NCBI RefSeq assembly: GCF_003001995.1
Contig: NZ_PVNB01000006.1
Location: 1 to 64,000 of the forward strand
Origin: Orenia metallireducens
Lineage (GTDB): Bacteria; Bacillota; Halanaerobiia; Halobacteroidales; Halobacteroidaceae
Length of the DNA: 64,000 nt
Direction: 5' to 3'
Part shown: positions 8,902 through 51,366 of the stretch, in pieces
How positions within the stretch are numbered: the first letter of the stretch is position 1
Layout of the letters: every line of letters starts with the position of its first letter
Notes under the pieces: generated by a model
What the model saw: only the letters and a program-made list of their open reading frames with translations
The model's database searches: none
What the model was told of the DNA's origin: nothing
Position numbers and translations under genes: made by a program

Positions 8902-9504
8902 ATGCTTAAAATTGGTGTCTTATCTTTACAAGGGGGAGTAGCTGAACACCTAAAGATGTTAGACCAAATTACTGGTGTCTCCCCTTTAAGTGTCAAAAAG
9001 AAGGAAGATTTTGCAGATTTAGATGGGCTAATCTTACCTGGCGGTGAAAGCACTACCTTAGGAAAGCTACTTAATATCTTTGATTTAAAGGATACAATTA
9101 TAGATTTAGCCCAAAGAGGGCTGCCAATCTGGGGGACCTGTGCTGGCATGATTTTATTAGCTAAAGAAGTTGATGGTGAAGATAGCCATCTCAATCTGAT
9201 GGATATCAGTGTTAAAAGAAATGGCTATGGAAATCAATTAGCTAGCTTTAAGACTATGGAGGTAATTCCTAAAATAGCTGAGCAAGAGATTCCACTAGTA
9301 TTTATCAGAGCACCTTATATCAATCAAGTCTCTAATAATGTTCAAGTATTACTAGAGTTGGATAGTAAGATTGTAGCTGCAGAGCAGAACAATCTACTAG
9401 CTACGTCTTTCCATCCAGAGTTGGCTGAAAATCTAAGTGTACATCAGTATTTTGTAAATAAGGTTAAAGCATCTATGACAGATGCTTTAAAGATAGCTAA
9501 ATAA
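8902..9504 (+). CDS. pdxT: Pyridoxal 5'-phosphate synthase glutaminase subunit PdxT
   Basis: The start is the ATG at 8902, ten bases after AAGGTGG; an upstream in-frame ATG at 8881 is the last base-pair of an inverted repeat and lacks a ribosome site. 200 residues. A class I glutaminase with the triad Cys80 (WGTCAGM), His171 and Glu173 (SFHPEL), plus the GGVAEH and PGGESTT oxyanion segment. It feeds ammonia to PdxS. It is separated from pdxS by about 240 bp. Confidence 0.96.
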   Translation: MLKIGVLSLQGGVAEHLKMLDQITGVSPLSVKKKEDFADLDGLILPGGESTTLGKLLNIFDLKDTIIDLAQRGLPIWGTCAGMILLAKEVDGEDSHLNLMDISVKRNGYGNQLASFKTMEVIPKIAEQEIPLVFIRAPYINQVSNNVQVLLELDSKIVAAEQNNLLATSFHPELAENLSVHQYFVNKVKASMTDALKIAK

Positions 9505-9539
9505 TTTAATTAATCAGCGCAGTAATTCAAAAAATTTTT

Positions 9540-9618
9540 TACCACGAATCTACACAAATATACGTGAATCAAAAGAAATATGATTCATGTGTTATTTGTG
9601 CCAATTCGTGGTTAATTA
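9540..9618. repeat. Intergenic hairpin, ACCACGAAT core
   Basis: ACCACGAATCTACACAAATA and the right arm ATTTGTGCCAATTCGTGGT are complementary over most of their length, with an inner GTGAATC / GATTCAT pair. It lies between convergent pdxT and the peptidase gene and may terminate both. Confidence 0.65.
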
Positions 9619-9661
9619 TTTATTACTACTATTTTTTATCTCAATAATTTCTATGACTATT

Positions 9662-11233
9662 TTAATTAATCTCTACAACCTCTATATCAACCTCCTGCTC
9701 TTCAAATTGAGGTAAAATCTCTTCTTTTCTTCCTACAATCACCGTTAAAAACCTTTGAGGATAACTATACTCAGCAAAGACCTCCTGAGCCTTACTAGCA
9801 CTTAACTGATTATACTCCTCTATCACCTTATTGATATAATCGATATCTCTACCCTGTAGTTCAACATCACGGATAACTCTATTGATTACACTTAACTTAG
9901 ATTTATATGATTTAGGGAAGAAAGCATTATAAAGGTTGATAATTTTAAATAACTCATCTTCCTTTATCTTCTTCTCACCATTTTTTATAAGAGACATCTC
10001 TTCTTTAATCCCTTCTATTGCTTGATAGGTATTCTCAGGCTTTACTTCGGTACTAATGTAATAGGCTCCTCCTAATTCATTATATTGGTCATTGGCAGCA
10101 ATTCCATAAACAAAGCCTTTTTCAGTACGGAGCTTATTCATTAGCCTACTCTCAAAATCTCCTCCACCATAGACGATATTAGCCATTGTAAAATCAATTC
10201 TATCCTTAAAACTATTATCAAAGAAATTATATCCCATCTTAATCTTAGCTTGAGTAGCATCAGGCTTATTGACTAGGATTATTTTACCATAGTTCTCTCT
10301 ATCAATCTCAACTATCGGTTTTTTAATCTCAACCTCAATGTCTTGATACTTACTCTTCTCTTTAGCTTCCTCTTGACTCTTAACTTCAGACTCTTTATCT
10401 TTAAGCTGTTTATTTTCAGTAGACTCTTGCTCTTTATCCTCCTCTATCATTCCCCACTGATTAAAGTAATTATAAAGCATCTGCTCCATCTGCTTAGTAT
10501 CTAAATCACCTACAATAGCAAAGATAGTATTAGCAGGGGAGATATTCTTATCATAAAAGCTCTCTAACCTCTCAGGAGTGATATTAGAGAGAGCAGCTAT
10601 ATTTAAATCAATATCATCATCAAAAGAATAGGGATGATTTTTATAAATATTCTTATAAAAATACATATCTAACAATGAACTCTCCTGGGTTTTAGCTTGA
10701 ACCAAACCTCTATACAACTCCTGCTTTACTCTAGTAAAATGATTGGCATTAAACTTTGGCTCCTCTAACATCTCTGCCATTAAGGAAATTAGCTCATCTG
10801 TATCTGTACTTAAAGCACTACCGGCAAAACTGAGATAATCATTCGATACTCCAAAAGCAAAATCGATTCCATTAATATCTTTATAATTTGCCATCTCCTT
10901 TTCATTAAAGTGCTTAGTTCCAGTATTCATCATCTCGACCATAAAGGAGCTAATTCCTGCCAATTCTTTAGTCTCTTGTCTCCTTCCCCCATTGATATAA
11001 CCCTTAATCTCAATGATAGGAAGCTGATGATCTTCTACTAAATATACAATCAGACCATTTTCAAGCTCTATCCGTTTATAATCGGGAATCTCTATATGAG
11101 GAACCTTATTCTTATTAACTGCTAAGCTCTCAAATAACTCTTGGCTATACTCTACCTCTGCAAAAGCAGCTTCACTATAAACTACTTGAAAGAGAACTAC
11201 TAGCAGCATTATACCTATAATCAACTTTTTCAC
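9662..11233 (-). CDS. M16-family peptidase-like subunit, zinc site lost (R/Y subunit)
   Basis: 523 residues with a signal peptide (MKKLIIGIMLLVVLFQVVYS...AFA). The fold is M16B: ELENGLIVYLVEDHQLP at the start and a C-terminal SRLMNKLRTEKGFVYGI segment carrying the conserved Arg/Tyr pair. The HxxEH zinc motif is replaced by SFMVE at 96-100, so it cannot bind zinc alone. In two-subunit M16B enzymes one partner supplies zinc and the other the R/Y pair; the gene directly upstream supplies HLLEH. A charged Lys/Glu-rich insertion of about 50 residues separates the two halves. Probably envelope-located protein or peptide degradation. Confidence 0.82.
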   Translation of the reverse strand: MKKLIIGIMLLVVLFQVVYSEAAFAEVEYSQELFESLAVNKNKVPHIEIPDYKRIELENGLIVYLVEDHQLPIIEIKGYINGGRRQETKELAGISSFMVEMMNTGTKHFNEKEMANYKDINGIDFAFGVSNDYLSFAGSALSTDTDELISLMAEMLEEPKFNANHFTRVKQELYRGLVQAKTQESSLLDMYFYKNIYKNHPYSFDDDIDLNIAALSNITPERLESFYDKNISPANTIFAIVGDLDTKQMEQMLYNYFNQWGMIEEDKEQESTENKQLKDKESEVKSQEEAKEKSKYQDIEVEIKKPIVEIDRENYGKIILVNKPDATQAKIKMGYNFFDNSFKDRIDFTMANIVYGGGDFESRLMNKLRTEKGFVYGIAANDQYNELGGAYYISTEVKPENTYQAIEGIKEEMSLIKNGEKKIKEDELFKIINLYNAFFPKSYKSKLSVINRVIRDVELQGRDIDYINKVIEEYNQLSASKAQEVFAEYSYPQRFLTVIVGRKEEILPQFEEQEVDIEVVEIN

Positions 11234-40995: not shown

Positions 40996-41523
40996 TTAAG
41001 CATTATTTCTGTTTTTATTAAATACTAAAACCTTATCCTCTTCTATAAATCCTAAATATTCACGACCCATATCTTCTAGCAGATTATCTTTAGATACCTC
41101 TTCAAGTAAAGAATCTATAGCAGAAGCACCCTTAGCATAATAAAAATTTTGATTCTTTAACAGCTTATCCTCAAAGATCTCTTTTAGAACTGAGATTATA
41201 AAATCTAATTCATTTTTAGAGCATCCCTCTAAATCTCTACTCAGATTTAACCTAGTTAGACCATTATAGTCATCCTTAGTAACTATAATATTCTGCTTAT
41301 TCTTCTTTTTGAACTTGTTAAATAATCTAAAATGCTGCTCTATCTTTCTCTTCTGATTTAGCCAACTTTCATAAGTTATCTCTTCATCGATTAAAAAAGA
41401 TATCTTTAAACTCTTCTCCTCCAAATTAATATCCACTGTATTAATAATCGGGTACTCAAGTAAAATAGATGTCAATAATTCTATGCTATTATCACGATTT
41501 AAGTTAACTTTATTTGTCTCCAT
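40996..41523 (-). CDS. Unknown protein, 175 aa, between rny and ymdB
   Basis: The start is the ATG at 41523, 8 nt after AAAGGAG; the longer frame begins with a GTG inside that site. A soluble, charged alpha/beta protein without cysteine clusters: NSIELLTSILLEYPIINTVD, a basic stretch (RLFNKFKKKNKQNI), and GASAIDSLLEEV. The last pieces recall small regulatory or GerMN-like domains only vaguely; I do not recognise the family. It has its own ribosome site and lies downstream of the rny terminator, so it is probably transcribed alone. Confidence 0.6.
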   Translation of the reverse strand: METNKVNLNRDNSIELLTSILLEYPIINTVDINLEEKSLKISFLIDEEITYESWLNQKRKIEQHFRLFNKFKKKNKQNIIVTKDDYNGLTRLNLSRDLEGCSKNELDFIISVLKEIFEDKLLKNQNFYYAKGASAIDSLLEEVSKDNLLEDMGREYLGFIEEDKVLVFNKNRNNA

Positions 41524-41741
41524 AGTTAGCACTCCTTTAAAATTTACATTATTAGTCTATTCATTAGTTGATTGTTTTGTACTTATGTGCTACTTACTTT
41601 ACTTATTTAATTACATATAGACTCACAAATTCCTGCTTAAAATAAAGAATTTTAATCTAAAAATAATACCTGTTAAAAAACTTTCTTCTAGATTTAAGAT
41701 AATAATATTAATTAGGAATTAAGTTTAAAGGAGATATAGCA

Positions 41742-43554: not shown

Positions 43555-44217
43555 CTAAAATTCTTTAACAGCAACCTCACTTTTTCCATCCTTCAGTTCT
43601 ACTCTAAAAGCTTTATCAGCCACTTCACTTAAGTGTTGTTGATGTGTAACTACAATAATTTGACGTTCAGAAAAACTATGTACCTCTTTTAAAAATTCAG
43701 TTACCCTAATTATATACTCCTCACTAACATGTTTAGCAGGCTCATCTAAGATAATCGATCCATCGATAGCTGGATTGTTATGGCTCTGTAAAATAGCTAT
43801 TCTTAAGGCCAAAGAGACAACATCAACCACCCCTCCCCCACGAGCATCTTGGGGTTCATTTTTGACCCTATACTTATCCTCTTGAGAGACTACATAAAAA
43901 TCTGCCCAAGGCTGTCCTCCCCGACTTCTCAGCTCTATTTCAAAGCTGAAATTCTCACCAAAAACATATTGTAAAAAGTGAGTCACCAAAGACTCTATCT
44001 GTTGCCTTGATTGTTCTCTAGCAAATTCAGAGGTCTCATGAAAAAGGAGGTTGACCTGCTCTAATAAATCTCTTTCACTCTTTCTCTTCTCCAACTTCAA
44101 CTTACTCTCTGCAATTACCTGCTCTATATGCTCCTTGGTACCTTTCTTCTGGTCATATTCACTTTGCAATCTATTTATATTCTCTTCTAAGCCATTAATA
44201 ATATCAGCTATAGGCAT
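43555..44217 (-). CDS. Rad50/SbcC-like ATPase, C-terminal half (Walker B lobe)
   Basis: 220 residues. A coiled coil (about 8-65) leads into the C-lobe of an SMC/Rad50-type ATPase: signature-like GGGVVDVVSLALRIA (127-141), Walker B SIILDEP (154-160, Asp158/Glu159) with D-loop, and H-loop VVTHQQH (His192). No Walker A exists in this protein. The Walker A lobe is in the gene at 44618-46213 of the same operon, so the two together make one composite ATPase site. The start has an AAGGAGG site. Confidence 0.82.
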   Translation of the reverse strand: MPIADIINGLEENINRLQSEYDQKKGTKEHIEQVIAESKLKLEKRKSERDLLEQVNLLFHETSEFAREQSRQQIESLVTHFLQYVFGENFSFEIELRSRGGQPWADFYVVSQEDKYRVKNEPQDARGGGVVDVVSLALRIAILQSHNNPAIDGSIILDEPAKHVSEEYIIRVTEFLKEVHSFSERQIIVVTHQQHLSEVADKAFRVELKDGKSEVAVKEF

Positions 44218-44247
44218 AAGATTTCCTCCTTCCCTATCTAAGTTAAA

Positions 44248-44325
44248 GTAGTGGGTAATAAGTAATGAGCAAACAGTTATAGTAAAACAAACTTGTTACT
44301 CATTACTCGTCACCAATTACTGTCC
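44248..44325. repeat. Core-only palindrome inside the repair operon
   Basis: GTGGGTAATAAGTAATGAGC and TTACTCATTACTCGTCACCA pair around a short AT-rich middle. It lies between the small coiled-coil gene and the C-half, and it supplies the coiled-coil gene's stop codon (TAA in CAGTAATTGGTGACG on the minus strand). Confidence 0.65.
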
Positions 44326-44589
44326 TACTTTCCCCTGTAATACATCTTTATCAGGTAACATCTCTTTAGCCTGTTTCAATAGTTCTTGAAGCTTAGCTTC
44401 TGTCTGCTTAATCTCTTCTTCTAAATTATCAGGTTCTACTCCAAACTCTTTTATCTCTGCTACCAACTTCTCATTATCCTTCTTTAAGGATTCCATTCTA
44501 GCCTCACTTTGCATCTTCAATCTATTAGCAGTATCCAACTCTTTTTTTATTTGAGTAATCTCCTGCTCATATTTAGCCATATTAGCCAT
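44317..44589 (-). CDS. Small coiled-coil protein of the split Rad50 operon
   Basis: 90 residues, almost entirely heptad-like: YEQEITQIKKELDTANRLKM, then KDNEKLVAEIKEFGV and LEEEIKQTEAKLQELLKQAK. No cysteine. Preceded by AAAGGGTGA. It lies exactly between the N-half and C-half genes of the ATPase. It might supply coiled coil that the short C-half lacks. Confidence 0.65.
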   Translation of the reverse strand: MANMAKYEQEITQIKKELDTANRLKMQSEARMESLKKDNEKLVAEIKEFGVEPDNLEEEIKQTEAKLQELLKQAKEMLPDKDVLQGKVGQ

Positions 44590-44617
44590 TCAATTCACCC
44601 TTTCCATTTATTGTAAG

Positions 44618-46213
44618 TCACTCTTCACTCTTTATCTCTTCTAAGATATGCTCTATCACATTCTCATCAACCACACTCAAACAGGTCGGGCATCTTCCTT
44701 CTTCTTTTAAATAATCCCCATAAGCTTGAGCTAATTGATTGACCTTATCCTCCTGCTTGGCTAATAAAGTCGATAATTGATCCATCTCTCTTAAATTCCT
44801 TGCTCTAGCTTCCTTAAATTCTAATAACTTAGCTAGCTTAATCTTCTCTTGTTTCATTAGAGCAACTACCTCATCTGCCTTATCAATCTCAGCTAAGGAT
44901 TTAGCTTGGATATACTCTCTTTTATATTCGTCTCTCATCTCTTTCTGTCTAGCTAAGACTTTAACTAGAGTCTTAGCTTTTTCTAAGAGATAAGGTAACT
45001 CTTTATCTACAATATCTATTACTTTGCTAACATCCTTACTTGCTTCAATGACCCTCTGTTTAGCTGCTATACCTTTGATATTTTCCCGATAGGCTTGATG
45101 ATACTTGATTAGATAAGAAAGTTTATTGCTCTCTTGACTTAAGAGCTTAAATATATCTTCTACCTTGTCTAAGTCTTCAAGCTCTTCTAATATCCTACTT
45201 CCCACCTTGATACTATGCTCTTGCTTCTTATATTCAATAAAGTATCTATCTAAAATTCTCAATCTATCAACAGTTGATTCCAACTCTTCATAAACCTTAA
45301 ATAATTCATCTATACCCTCTAACTCATCTAATATCTTGCTGTAAGTATTAAGTTCTGTTTGCTGTTCTTTGTAAATTTTTAGGTATGATGCCAACTTATC
45401 TAATCTGCTATTATTATCAGCTAAACTTAAATAAATTGACTCTAACTTATCTAAATCATTTAGTTGCTTCAATATCTTCTCAATCTCTTCTTGCTCACAA
45501 GCAAGCTGATCTTTTCTATCTTTGAAGCATTTTAATCTCTCTAATTTACTATCGATATTTTTTAGTTGAAGTAATAACTTTTTCTGAGCATCAATCTCGT
45601 CTTTAATCTCATTTAAATTTTCAAATTCCTTTAACTTCTCTTCGTTCTCAGCAATCAGCTCTGTAAGTTGGTTCTGCTCTGCACTGTTTCTTTTAATATC
45701 TCTAGTGGTACTTTGAATAGCAACATCAACAACATGAACATTGATCAATCTACCTAAGGTTTTGGCTCTAATCGATCCACTATCTGTTAAGAGAAAAGCA
45801 CCTTCTAGTTGATAATCTATATTCAAAGTTGTCTCATCATCTGTCCCCAAATAGATCTTTCTCATCCCATGAATCTCTAGTATCTCTTCAGGTACTCCAC
45901 TACCTACTTTCTCAAAGACATGCTCCTCCCCTTCAGGAGTGATTAAGATATACCTATTTTTACTGGGAGTCCGCTTCCGGATAATTTTAAAACCATTGCT
46001 TAACTCAATTCCTACCTGACACTTTTTTTTACCATGGCGGATAAAGTCACTTCCCCTAGGCTCATTATATAAGACCCATCTTAAGGCTCTAATAATTGCT
46101 GACTTTCCCTGATCCGAAGGACCTGTAATCACATTCAGACCTTGATCAAGATTTAATTTACTATTCTCATGGGATTGAAAATTTATCAGTTCAATGCTCT
46201 TAATACCTACCAT
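44618..46213 (-). CDS. Rad50/SbcC-like ATPase, N-terminal half with zinc-hook CPTC
   Basis: 531 residues. N-lobe of a RecF/SMC-class ATPase: IELINFQSHENSKLNL, Walker A GPSDQGKS (31-38), Q-loop Gln135. A coiled coil follows (about 170-500), containing tandem 47-residue repeats at 248-294, 295-341, 342-388, 389-435 and weaker at 436-482. The end is EEGRCPTCLSVV (Cys508, Cys511), a CPxC zinc-hook half, at the C terminus rather than mid-protein. No Walker B. ATG overlaps the stop of the nuclease gene (TAATG). Expected to bind DNA ends with the SbcD-like nuclease. Confidence 0.83.
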   Translation of the reverse strand: MVGIKSIELINFQSHENSKLNLDQGLNVITGPSDQGKSAIIRALRWVLYNEPRGSDFIRHGKKKCQVGIELSNGFKIIRKRTPSKNRYILITPEGEEHVFEKVGSGVPEEILEIHGMRKIYLGTDDETTLNIDYQLEGAFLLTDSGSIRAKTLGRLINVHVVDVAIQSTTRDIKRNSAEQNQLTELIAENEEKLKEFENLNEIKDEIDAQKKLLLQLKNIDSKLERLKCFKDRKDQLACEQEEIEKILKQLNDLDKLESIYLSLADNNSRLDKLASYLKIYKEQQTELNTYSKILDELEGIDELFKVYEELESTVDRLRILDRYFIEYKKQEHSIKVGSRILEELEDLDKVEDIFKLLSQESNKLSYLIKYHQAYRENIKGIAAKQRVIEASKDVSKVIDIVDKELPYLLEKAKTLVKVLARQKEMRDEYKREYIQAKSLAEIDKADEVVALMKQEKIKLAKLLEFKEARARNLREMDQLSTLLAKQEDKVNQLAQAYGDYLKEEGRCPTCLSVVDENVIEHILEEIKSEE

Positions 46214-47193
46214 TAATTATTCTCACCACCTTGACCAACCTCTTGCTGTGCAAACTCCAATCTATGTAGGGCTTCTTTAATTATATCTTCCTCTAACCCT
46301 TTATTAGCAGCTATCTTATTTAAGATAGCATCGATACTAAAGACCTTAAAATTATCAGAAGCCTTGATCTGCCTAACAAATTCAGCCAACTTCTTCTCCC
46401 TAAACTTCTCTTCCTCGATAGCCCTACGGTCTAAGACCTCTTTACCTTTTTGGGCAGACTTTAACTTTCTTAAAGTAATATTAAGCTCATCTTTTAGTTC
46501 AATAATCGCTACTTGCGGGGTTCGATTAATCTCTTTGATATCAGCACTTGCCCTTACCAATGAACCTGGATTTAAGAAATATCTGCCTTTATATTCCTTT
46601 ACCCCAAAGCCTAAATGATAATGCCCTGCAATAGTAATATCTGCTTCTGTCTCTACATCCTCAATCAAGGTAAAACCAGACTCAAAAAAAGGTCTGTCCA
46701 ATAACATTCCATGGACTATATGAATAGCATAATCAGCATTACTAGCCTTTTTAATGTTATAAGCATCACTATTTTTATTATCTAAGGTATAATCAAAGTT
46801 CCTTCCAGATAACTGTAGGGTTATCCCCCCCTTATCCTTTAATATTATCGCTTCATCAGGAATCAATTTAACAACCCCTGAAGCAATCAATAACCCCAAC
46901 ATTGTCCGTGGCAAGGTCTGAGGATTATGCCCATATAGATCGTGATTTCCTGCTACTATATAAATTGGCTTAGGATAAGTCCTTAGTACCTTGACAAATT
47001 CACCAACCACAGAAGGGGCTGTATCTGGACGATCAAATAAATCTCCACCATGGAGAATATAATCAACCTCTTCCTCAATTGCAATCTCTCTTACCTCTGT
47101 TAATTTCCTCAATAAAGTCTCTTTAAAGTCATCCAACCTCCTACTTGGATTGGTTCCTCTAATATGGGTATCTGTTAAAAATAAGAGCCTCAC
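46213..47193 (-). CDS. Mre11/SbcD-like DNA-repair nuclease
   Basis: The GTG at 47193 is chosen because GAGGAGG lies 6 nt upstream and it follows the recX stop directly. 326 residues. Calcineurin-like phosphoesterase motifs: LLFLTDTHI (Asp8, His10), GGDLFDRPD, VAGNHDLYG, VHGM and AGHYHLGFG, then a helical C-terminal capping part. It is shorter than classic SbcD/Mre11. Context with a Rad50-like ATPase makes a DNA end-processing nuclease likely. Confidence 0.83.
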   Translation of the reverse strand: MRLLFLTDTHIRGTNPSRRLDDFKETLLRKLTEVREIAIEEEVDYILHGGDLFDRPDTAPSVVGEFVKVLRTYPKPIYIVAGNHDLYGHNPQTLPRTMLGLLIASGVVKLIPDEAIILKDKGGITLQLSGRNFDYTLDNKNSDAYNIKKASNADYAIHIVHGMLLDRPFFESGFTLIEDVETEADITIAGHYHLGFGVKEYKGRYFLNPGSLVRASADIKEINRTPQVAIIELKDELNITLRKLKSAQKGKEVLDRRAIEEEKFREKKLAEFVRQIKASDNFKVFSIDAILNKIAANKGLEEDIIKEALHRLEFAQQEVGQGGENN

Positions 47194-49959: not shown

Positions 49960-51366
49960 TTAATCAACTTCTTTTTCTTTATCCATCCCCTTATCATTAA
50001 TTAACTTTCTTTCTAAGATAAAACCACTATGGCGATCATAGAATTTAATAATATCAACTACATCTAAAGACCATTTCTCTGGTTCTTCTGTTGAACTGTT
50101 ATAATGTAATAAGGCAACAGAGTAGGGGATTCCTTCCTCACTCTGTAAACCTCTAATTCCAGAAGCACCAGTAGTCCCTGCATCTATAATTGTAGTTCCT
50201 TTCATATCATAAATCTTAAAGACATGGTCATGCCCATGTAGTAATAAAGGAATCTCTCCTAATAACCCCTTTCCTAGCTTAAAGTTATGGGTAATCACTA
50301 TATCAGGAGTTACCTTTAATCTAGCAACTAGCTCTTCCAAGCCTTCTTTATATTCTGCCATATCCTCTTCTTCTAAAGGCTTAATTTGATTGCTTTTAGC
50401 AGCAGGATCTTCTACCCCTGCTATCACTAGCCCTTTAATATTGATTACATCTGCTTGTAAGACGATTACATTTTCAAACTCTCTCATACTCTCGACAATA
50501 TCTGGTGAGTCATGATTACCTGCTATAAAGATATAGGGTACCTTTAAATCATCTATTCTCTTTAATAATTCACCCTCTAGTGGAGTACCATAATCGGTAA
50601 TATCCCCTGTATCAATAATTAAATCTACTCCAAAACTATCTACTATCTCTTCTACAAAGGGCAAAGCTACAGGGTTATTATGAATATCTGTAATATGTAA
50701 GACCTTCAAATCCCCAGTTACCCTACTTAGCGGTCTTAAAGTATCAACCTTTGAGAATAGCTCTGCCATATTAGAGGCAATCAATTCCATCTCTTCACCC
50801 AATTGATCTATACTATCTAAACCTTTTTGAATCATACCAATCATCCATGGTGCAGCTTCTAACATTCCTTCATAATTGGGATCATTAAACTTTGATAAGT
50901 CATAAGTATAATAGGTCATTGTAGTTAATATAAGTACAATTATGATTCCCATTATAGTCCCTATTAGAATAGATTGACGATCAAACTTAATCAAACTTGC
51001 CCCAACTATTCCACCCAAGATAGCTATCACAGCTAATCTGATCATAAATAATTGAACAACAACATTTCCCTTCTCTTTTAGTAAGGAGATTAACTCATCT
51101 TTGCTCTTGATATTCTCTATTATTGCCTTTAATCGCTCTTGATGAATTGCATCCAAGGTTAGATTTATATCTAAAGGGGACTTATGGGTACTAGCTCTGA
51201 TTCTACCTACAGGAGGAAAATCAAAAACTGTAGCAGGTTGATCTGATAGCTTTAAATCAATTTCAACATCAAAAGCACTTAATTTATAGACCTTGGCAGA
51301 GGTAAAATTAATTAAAAATAGTATAATAGCAGTTGCTAAAATTATCTTTCCCACTAGCCCCTTCAT
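49960..51366 (-). CDS. Membrane-anchored metallophosphoesterase
   Basis: 468 residues. N-terminal helix (IILATAIILFLINFTSA), an external part to about 105, two helices (about 107-127 and 133-152), then a calcineurin-like domain: LKVLHITDIHNNP, DLIIDTGDITDYG, IAGNHDSPD, VITHNFKLGKGLLGEIP and LLLHGHDH. It resembles membrane phosphoesterases found in Clostridia whose substrate is unknown. It is directly downstream (18 bp) of cinA. Confidence 0.82.
   Translation of the reverse strand: MKGLVGKIILATAIILFLINFTSAKVYKLSAFDVEIDLKLSDQPATVFDFPPVGRIRASTHKSPLDINLTLDAIHQERLKAIIENIKSKDELISLLKEKGNVVVQLFMIRLAVIAILGGIVGASLIKFDRQSILIGTIMGIIIVLILTTMTYYTYDLSKFNDPNYEGMLEAAPWMIGMIQKGLDSIDQLGEEMELIASNMAELFSKVDTLRPLSRVTGDLKVLHITDIHNNPVALPFVEEIVDSFGVDLIIDTGDITDYGTPLEGELLKRIDDLKVPYIFIAGNHDSPDIVESMREFENVIVLQADVINIKGLVIAGVEDPAAKSNQIKPLEEEDMAEYKEGLEELVARLKVTPDIVITHNFKLGKGLLGEIPLLLHGHDHVFKIYDMKGTTIIDAGTTGASGIRGLQSEEGIPYSVALLHYNSSTEEPEKWSLDVVDIIKFYDRHSGFILERKLINDKGMDKEKEVD

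Follow-up and report, generated by a model that had tools for sequence, protein, structure and literature searches.

We analysed a 64,000 nt stretch of DNA from Orenia metallireducens (positions 1 to 64,000 of contig NZ_PVNB01000006.1, hereafter the window) in which a Rad50/SbcC-like ATPase is divided between two genes, here called N and C. A short gene, cc, lies between them, and a gene (M) for an Mre11/SbcD-like nuclease precedes them. The order of transcription on the minus strand is recA, recX, M, N, cc, C, rny. The central features of the locus are the following.

47208-46213, minus strand: M, an Mre11/SbcD-like metallophosphoesterase of 331 aa (Pfam Metallophos, 2e-15), with a 1-base overlap with N.
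46213-44618, minus strand: N, the putative Rad50 N-half (N-lobe, arm and hook), 531 aa (AAA_23, 4e-18; PHROG 16465, 7e-87; Rad50 as top PDB profile match, 3e-12).
46100..46123, minus strand: Walker A motif GPSDQGKS of N (residues 31-38), with G31, G36 and K37 invariant in 114 homologues.
45809..45811, minus strand: Q-loop glutamine Q135 of N, invariant in 114 homologues.
44699..45592, minus strand: arm of 47-residue helical repeats, N residues 208-505, with units detected at 208, 255, 302, 349 and 444 by self-similarity, a unit hidden Markov model (HMM) and an AlphaFold2 (AF2) model.
44681..44692, minus strand: CPTC motif of the zinc hook (N residues 508-511), its two cysteines unchanged across 114 homologues; the end of the N profile matches the Rad50 hooks 6zff and 1l8d.
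44589-44317, minus strand: cc, a helix-loop-helix protein of 90 aa with a conserved GVxPExL turn and a homologue at the same position in nearly all loci.
44217-43555, minus strand: C, the putative Rad50 C-half (short coil stub and C-lobe), 220 aa (PHROG 15167, 1.6e-62; Rad50 chain B as top profile match, 8.6e-15).
43828..43842, minus strand: altered ABC signature RGGGV, C residues 126-130, aligning with LSGGE of Rad50; G127 and G129 are invariant in 105 homologues.
43741..43755, minus strand: Walker B motif IILDE, C residues 155-159, with D158 and E159 invariant in 105 homologues.
43642..43644, minus strand: H-loop histidine H192 of C, conserved in 102 of 105 homologues.

The Walker A, Q-loop, Walker B and H-loop motifs of an ABC ATPase are all present, divided over two chains: Walker B is absent from N and Walker A is absent from C. 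An earlier interpretation made from the letters of the window and their translations (the sequence-only reading) had placed Walker A and the Q-loop in N and Walker B and the H-loop in C, as we found. Two of its details required correction. N does not end with CPTC, as the motif sits 20 residues short of the C-terminus, and the signature of C is RGGGV instead of the standard LSGGE. No canonical LSGGE/Q signature was found in the 105 aligned C homologues, which are of the RGGGV type, with glycine at the serine position in all 105 and valine or isoleucine at the glutamate position in most. By sequence, the CxxC of a zinc hook is invariant in the 114 N-halves. The description of M as an SbcD-like phosphoesterase with a full set of metal motifs was borne out: all five phosphoesterase metal motifs of Mre11/SbcD are present, and D13, H15, G55-D56, GNHD 87-90, H166, GH 195-196 and H198 are invariant in 21 homologues. 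The C-terminal region of M is also conserved, and a check for a capping domain or Rad50-binding helix there gave no PDB profile match at 1e-10.

In profile comparisons, Rad50 is the best match of each half, which disposes of the concern, raised in the sequence-only reading, that they might belong to unrelated families. For N, Rad50 ranked first at 3e-12, above SMC, and the last 70 profile positions matched the solved zinc hooks 6zff (5.8e-6) and 1l8d (1.3e-5). At 1e-8 the C profile matched Rad50 chains only (best 8.6e-15), and it is on profiles that we place C as a probable Rad50 C-half. The AF2 model of N has a mean predicted local distance difference test score of 81.9; its head groups with the heads of Rad50, SMC and RecF at tied Z-scores of 11-14, and its alignment to Rad50 1f2u (Z 13.9, root-mean-square deviation 2.6 over 133 residues) ties with SMC heads. 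Archaeal Rad50 proteins, from Pyrococcus and Methanocaldococcus, are the top profile matches for both halves and for the hook region. Archaeal Rad50 is naturally a single chain, and its known two-chain form is an engineered crystallization construct. In several of the matched Pyrococcus structures (1f2t, 1ii8) the N and C segments were deposited as two chains, an artificial precedent for assembly in trans.

The distribution of the two genes was assessed in 101 related genomes, an evenly drawn sample of 398 genomes from the phylum, 238 related loci and 80 named bacterial loci. Strong matches to N and to C were found in the identical 21 of the 101 relatives (Fisher 4e-22). In the phylum sample, N was present in 64 genomes, C in 65 and both in 63; the one genome with N only (G352) carries it on a 3.4-kb contig, and the two genomes with C only contain fusions. 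N spans 45 of the 267 genera of this sample. N and C were not found on one chain in any of the 238 related loci scanned. The same four ORFs (M, N, cc and C), in the same order and with open frames, recur across the order and in distant families, so that the division cannot be put down to chance or error. The named loci include Halonatronum, Natroniella, Caloramator, Acetivibrio, Tepidanaerobacter, Tumebacillus and Kroppenstedtia. Judged from these sequences, split Rad50 is real, old and widespread, in Gram-positive bacteria as in their phages, which upholds the proposal of a Rad50/SbcC-like ATPase divided between two genes beside an Mre11-like nuclease.

The order recA-recX-M-N-cc-C-rny was found in 24 of the 80 named loci and recA-M-N-cc-C-rny in another 24; overall, the cassette lies between recA and rny in 49. 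Phages mostly show the order N-cc-C-M, or recA-N-M-C, in which C is directly preceded by a divergent cc-like gene. In Acetivibrio-like genomes, the neighbours downstream of M-N-cc were read as rimO and pgsA, with no C close by. Where C is outside the cluster, a strong C was found elsewhere in 14 of 15 genomes. Two single loci were also noted. In genome G403 (locus L289, 6344-7647), N occupies two ORFs (profile positions 1-100 and 157-479), a frameshift or decay, with M, cc and C intact. In Bacillus phage vB_BboS-125 (L031, 7416-10236), N, an AP2-domain gene, cc and C lie in a row, and the M gene (9256-10236) is unannotated in the record.

A separate full-length sbcC was sought in the Orenia metallireducens genome, and no TIGR00618 match was found; the same model was positive in 14 of 14 controls. 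Across the 398 genomes, SbcC was present in 165 and N in 64, with an overlap of 2 against 26.5 expected (Fisher 5e-14, an indicative value, given the non-independence of related genomes). The presence of the split system and that of full-length SbcC are nearly mutually exclusive. Both genomes that carry the two together (G168 and G445) have the phage order N-cc-C-M, and we read their split copies as prophage-borne. Replacement of SbcCD by the split system is the best reading of this pattern of gene presence.

Natural fusions join the same parts. Some phages encode M-N as a single chain of 707-772 aa; on one phage contig of 218,948 bp (L136), a separate gene for the C-half lies 1 kb downstream of such a fusion. 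All eight genomes examined from a single bacterial family (f54) have parts joined. Six have a single M-Nhead-Chead chain (700, 684, 695 and 783 aa for the chains read to their full length), and two, of one genus, have a separate M and an Nhead-Chead chain of 373-375 aa. The positions of M-N-C triple and N-C fusions in this family are given below.

L287, 4652-6754.
L292, 3764-5818.
L293, 4583-6670.
L305, 7694-8815.
L306, 8361-9488.

The f54 fusions keep N only to approximately position 171-178 of 482 in its profile and C only from approximately position 44-53 of 219; by these coordinates, the arm, the hook and the C coil stub are gone. No cc was found near the f54 fusions, and no armless fused protein was found in viral contigs. 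The triple fusions that were read retain Walker A, Walker B and a GGG signature. One of the two short N-C fusions has LVLDDP as its Walker B and another residue in place of the H-loop histidine, so the activity of that protein is uncertain.

The arm of N has a regular construction. Self-similarity of 140 split arms peaked at lags of 47 (z 3.6) and 94 (z 2.9) residues, and the unit HMM spaced successive units by 47 residues 322 times. These lag peaks were absent from 16 SbcC chains from this phylum, where the lags were those of ordinary heptads. AF2 models the arm as helices of approximately 44 residues with short breaks between them. Measured from the conserved D163, the hook lies at distances that cluster at 250, 297, 344 and 391 residues, and also at approximately 147 and 194 in a phage clade. 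The best single period across all arm lengths is 49-51 and not exactly 47, as the shortest length classes lie slightly off the grid; a change of arm length in 47-residue steps is nonetheless strongly supported by the sequences.

While the arm ranges from 147 to 391 residues, the length of cc is steady (approximately 83), as is that of C (approximately 220, or 205 in the short-arm phage clade). Since the ascending strand grows by 47-141 residues and the descending strand is constant, these lengths indicate that the matched antiparallel coil of classical Rad50 cannot be formed in the split system. The geometry therefore departs from that of classical Rad50, as the sequence-only reading had anticipated. 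It had also suggested that the 90-residue protein fills in for the missing descending coil. This short helix-GVxPExL-helix protein is near-universal in arm-bearing systems, and the suggestion holds at most in part: at approximately 80 residues for arm lengths of 147 to 391, the protein cannot pair along the whole arm. An apparent lack of cc in short-arm phages proved wrong, as divergent cc-like genes lie directly upstream of C there. One phage M-N chain (L179, 7068-9383) has a 138-residue coiled-coil tail past the hook and no separate cc was found between N and C. We considered this tail as a fused cc; its score of 11.5 was the best of approximately 2000 shuffles, but other coiled-coil arms reach 12.0, and the match is suggestive and not statistically secure.

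The arm may extend as a rod or fold on itself into a compact helical bundle with a short-reaching hook; the choice bears on the arm only, as either form is compatible with the same heteromeric complex. Hydrophobic positions recur every ~3.4 residues and the predicted helices break each 47 residues, breaks that hairpins could use. In a zigzag, though, each single-unit change of length would move the hook to the opposite end, and pooled covariation between repeat units gave no signal of hairpin packing. A Foldseek search with the arm alone returned nothing below E 3, the top two, non-significant, matches being Rad50 hook structures. The arm-alone AF2 model has a low predicted template modelling score (0.30), and a 91-residue helix crosses a unit boundary in it. 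None of these arguments is decisive. Taken together, the single-unit steps, the low-scoring model with its 91-residue helix and the absence of hairpin covariation favour an extended rod, without proving it, and we regard the compact bundle as unlikely, though a serious competitor.

The genes that flank the cassette bear on its function and on the extent of the transcription unit.

49137-47998, minus strand: recA, identified from its translation and a conserved neighbour in 55 of 80 named loci.
47952-47921, minus strand: terminator-like hairpin between recA and recX, with a 14-pair stem, a 4-base loop and a T-rich tail (consensus match only).
47845-47195, minus strand: recX, with three RecX helix-turn-helix domains and a 14-base overlap with M.
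43316-41772, minus strand: rny (RNase Y), identified from its translation; it flanks the conserved locus downstream and was found there in 49 of 80 named loci.

The sequence-only reading had placed recA, recX and the split genes in one operon. Because the terminator-like hairpin parts recA from recX, the transcription unit is probably recX-M-N-cc-C, with recA separable. Two further genes were noted in the vicinity: another calcineurin-like phosphoesterase, which has a membrane region at its N-terminus, between recA and cinA (49960-51366 in the window), and a 178-aa ORF between rny and a YmdB-like phosphoesterase (40996-41532), with no Pfam or NCBIfam family above cut-off.

An SMC-like ATPase with a nuclease could also form an anti-phage defence system akin to Lamassu rather than serve in repair, and weak PADLOC matches (N to LmuB, 5e-16; C to Mads mad3, 4e-12) point in that direction. 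These are, however, general SMC-fold matches, and the setting is a core recA locus and not a defence island, with the cassette between recA and rny in most of the named loci and no effector gene between it and its conserved flanks. Moreover, phages carry the cassette themselves, often beside recA, and it replaces SbcC. We therefore consider a role in defence improbable. It is less probable still that N and C are both Rad50 homologues that serve in two distinct complexes. Each is a chain of its own and C is able to leave the cluster, yet their co-occurrence is perfect, two kinds of fusion link the N-lobe to the C-lobe, and neither chain has the Walker motif of the other. A frameshift, assembly error or decaying sbcC pseudogene resembling two genes has next to no chance of being correct: N does stop directly past the hook, which at residue 508 (505-538 in SbcC of the phylum) leaves the parts collinear with one chain, but conservation of the split, with open frames in dozens of distant genomes, already refutes it (and the sequencing error that the sequence-only reading had allowed for), as do the separate cc gene between the halves, the other gene order in phages and the unlinked C of some genomes.

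We infer that the halves belong to one ATPase, as had been proposed, from their co-occurrence, the retention of C when unlinked, the M-N and M-N-C fusions and the Rad50 profile matches; assembly of the head in trans is strongly supported by these sequence comparisons. It is very likely that the locus encodes a heteromeric Mre11-Rad50 complex that stands in place of SbcCD, its head shared by N and C and its arm on N alone. N would give the N-lobe (Walker A and Q-loop) and C the C-lobe (signature, Walker B and H-loop), jointly forming one ABC ATPase head. Two heads would close around ATP on the M nuclease dimer, where DNA ends would be sensed and trimmed, with ATP governing the access of DNA ends to the nuclease. 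The arm, a row of 47-residue helical repeats with a CPxC hook at its tip, would be carried by N alone, and zinc at the hooks could join two complexes. The cc protein and the constant C coil stub probably brace a part of the arm of fixed length, at its base or hook end, and not the entire arm.

Several observations weigh against this interpretation. A signature without the serine and glutamate of LSGGE suggests that ATP-driven head closure may differ. Scores are far under the curated Rad50, SbcC and Mre11 cut-offs; the curated NCBIfam Rad50/SbcC cut-off was not reached (best 52 bits against 700). A function in repair is suggested by neighbouring genes and homology.

Like SbcCD, the split system has an ABC head with Walker A and B, a CPxC hook ending the ascending coil and an adjacent SbcD-like nuclease gene. 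SbcC differs in being one chain of 1017-1083 aa with a mid-chain hook (15 of 16 sampled), in its matched coils without 47-residue repeats and in its LSGGE/Q-type signature, whereas the split system has two chains plus cc, a one-sided repeat arm and RGGGV. Neither one chain with a mid-chain hook nor matched antiparallel coils were found for N and C. As the signature and single-chain features of the family are lacking, the sequences identify the split system as Rad50 by descent but not as canonical SbcC/Rad50.

Mre11/Rad50 fusions have been described before; in those from Bacillus phage 0305phi8-36 and Anaerostipes, one of the P-loop NTPase segments of SbcC is reported to be missing, an absence that was left unexplained (Yoshida et al. 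2011, PMC3175470). The fusions share the M-N order with the phage fusions reported here, which suggest that the missing segment is a separate gene. The families matched by N and C are catalogued apart, as PHROG 16465 ('exonuclease') and PHROG 15167 ('ATPase'), and we found no link between them as halves of one ATPase. No description of a split Rad50/SbcC was found in open-licence PMC papers. The sequence-only reading recognized the split and its parts; the 47-residue repeats, the altered signature and the armless fusions had escaped it. On balance, we lean towards a widespread class of Mre11-Rad50 not recognized before, with a heterodimeric N/C head and a self-standing, one-sided rod that evolves by whole 47-residue repeats, and with one tether-less lineage in which the heads have been re-fused, mostly into a chain of approximately 700 residues with the nuclease.

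It has long been asked how ATP at the Rad50 head is coupled to the long coils and the zinc hook, which are hard to change without breaking a single chain. The split system offers the head halves, arm and hairpin as separate genes, with arm lengths that differ by 47-residue steps and a one-chain form that has no arm. It could also account for the apparent absence of SbcC in many Bacillota, and for phage Mre11-Rad50 fusions that seem to miss half of the ATPase. If our interpretation is correct, this class of Mre11-Rad50 would be a natural case of Rad50 head functions uncoupled from coil signalling and tethering, and would challenge the need for a matched pair of coiled-coil strands.

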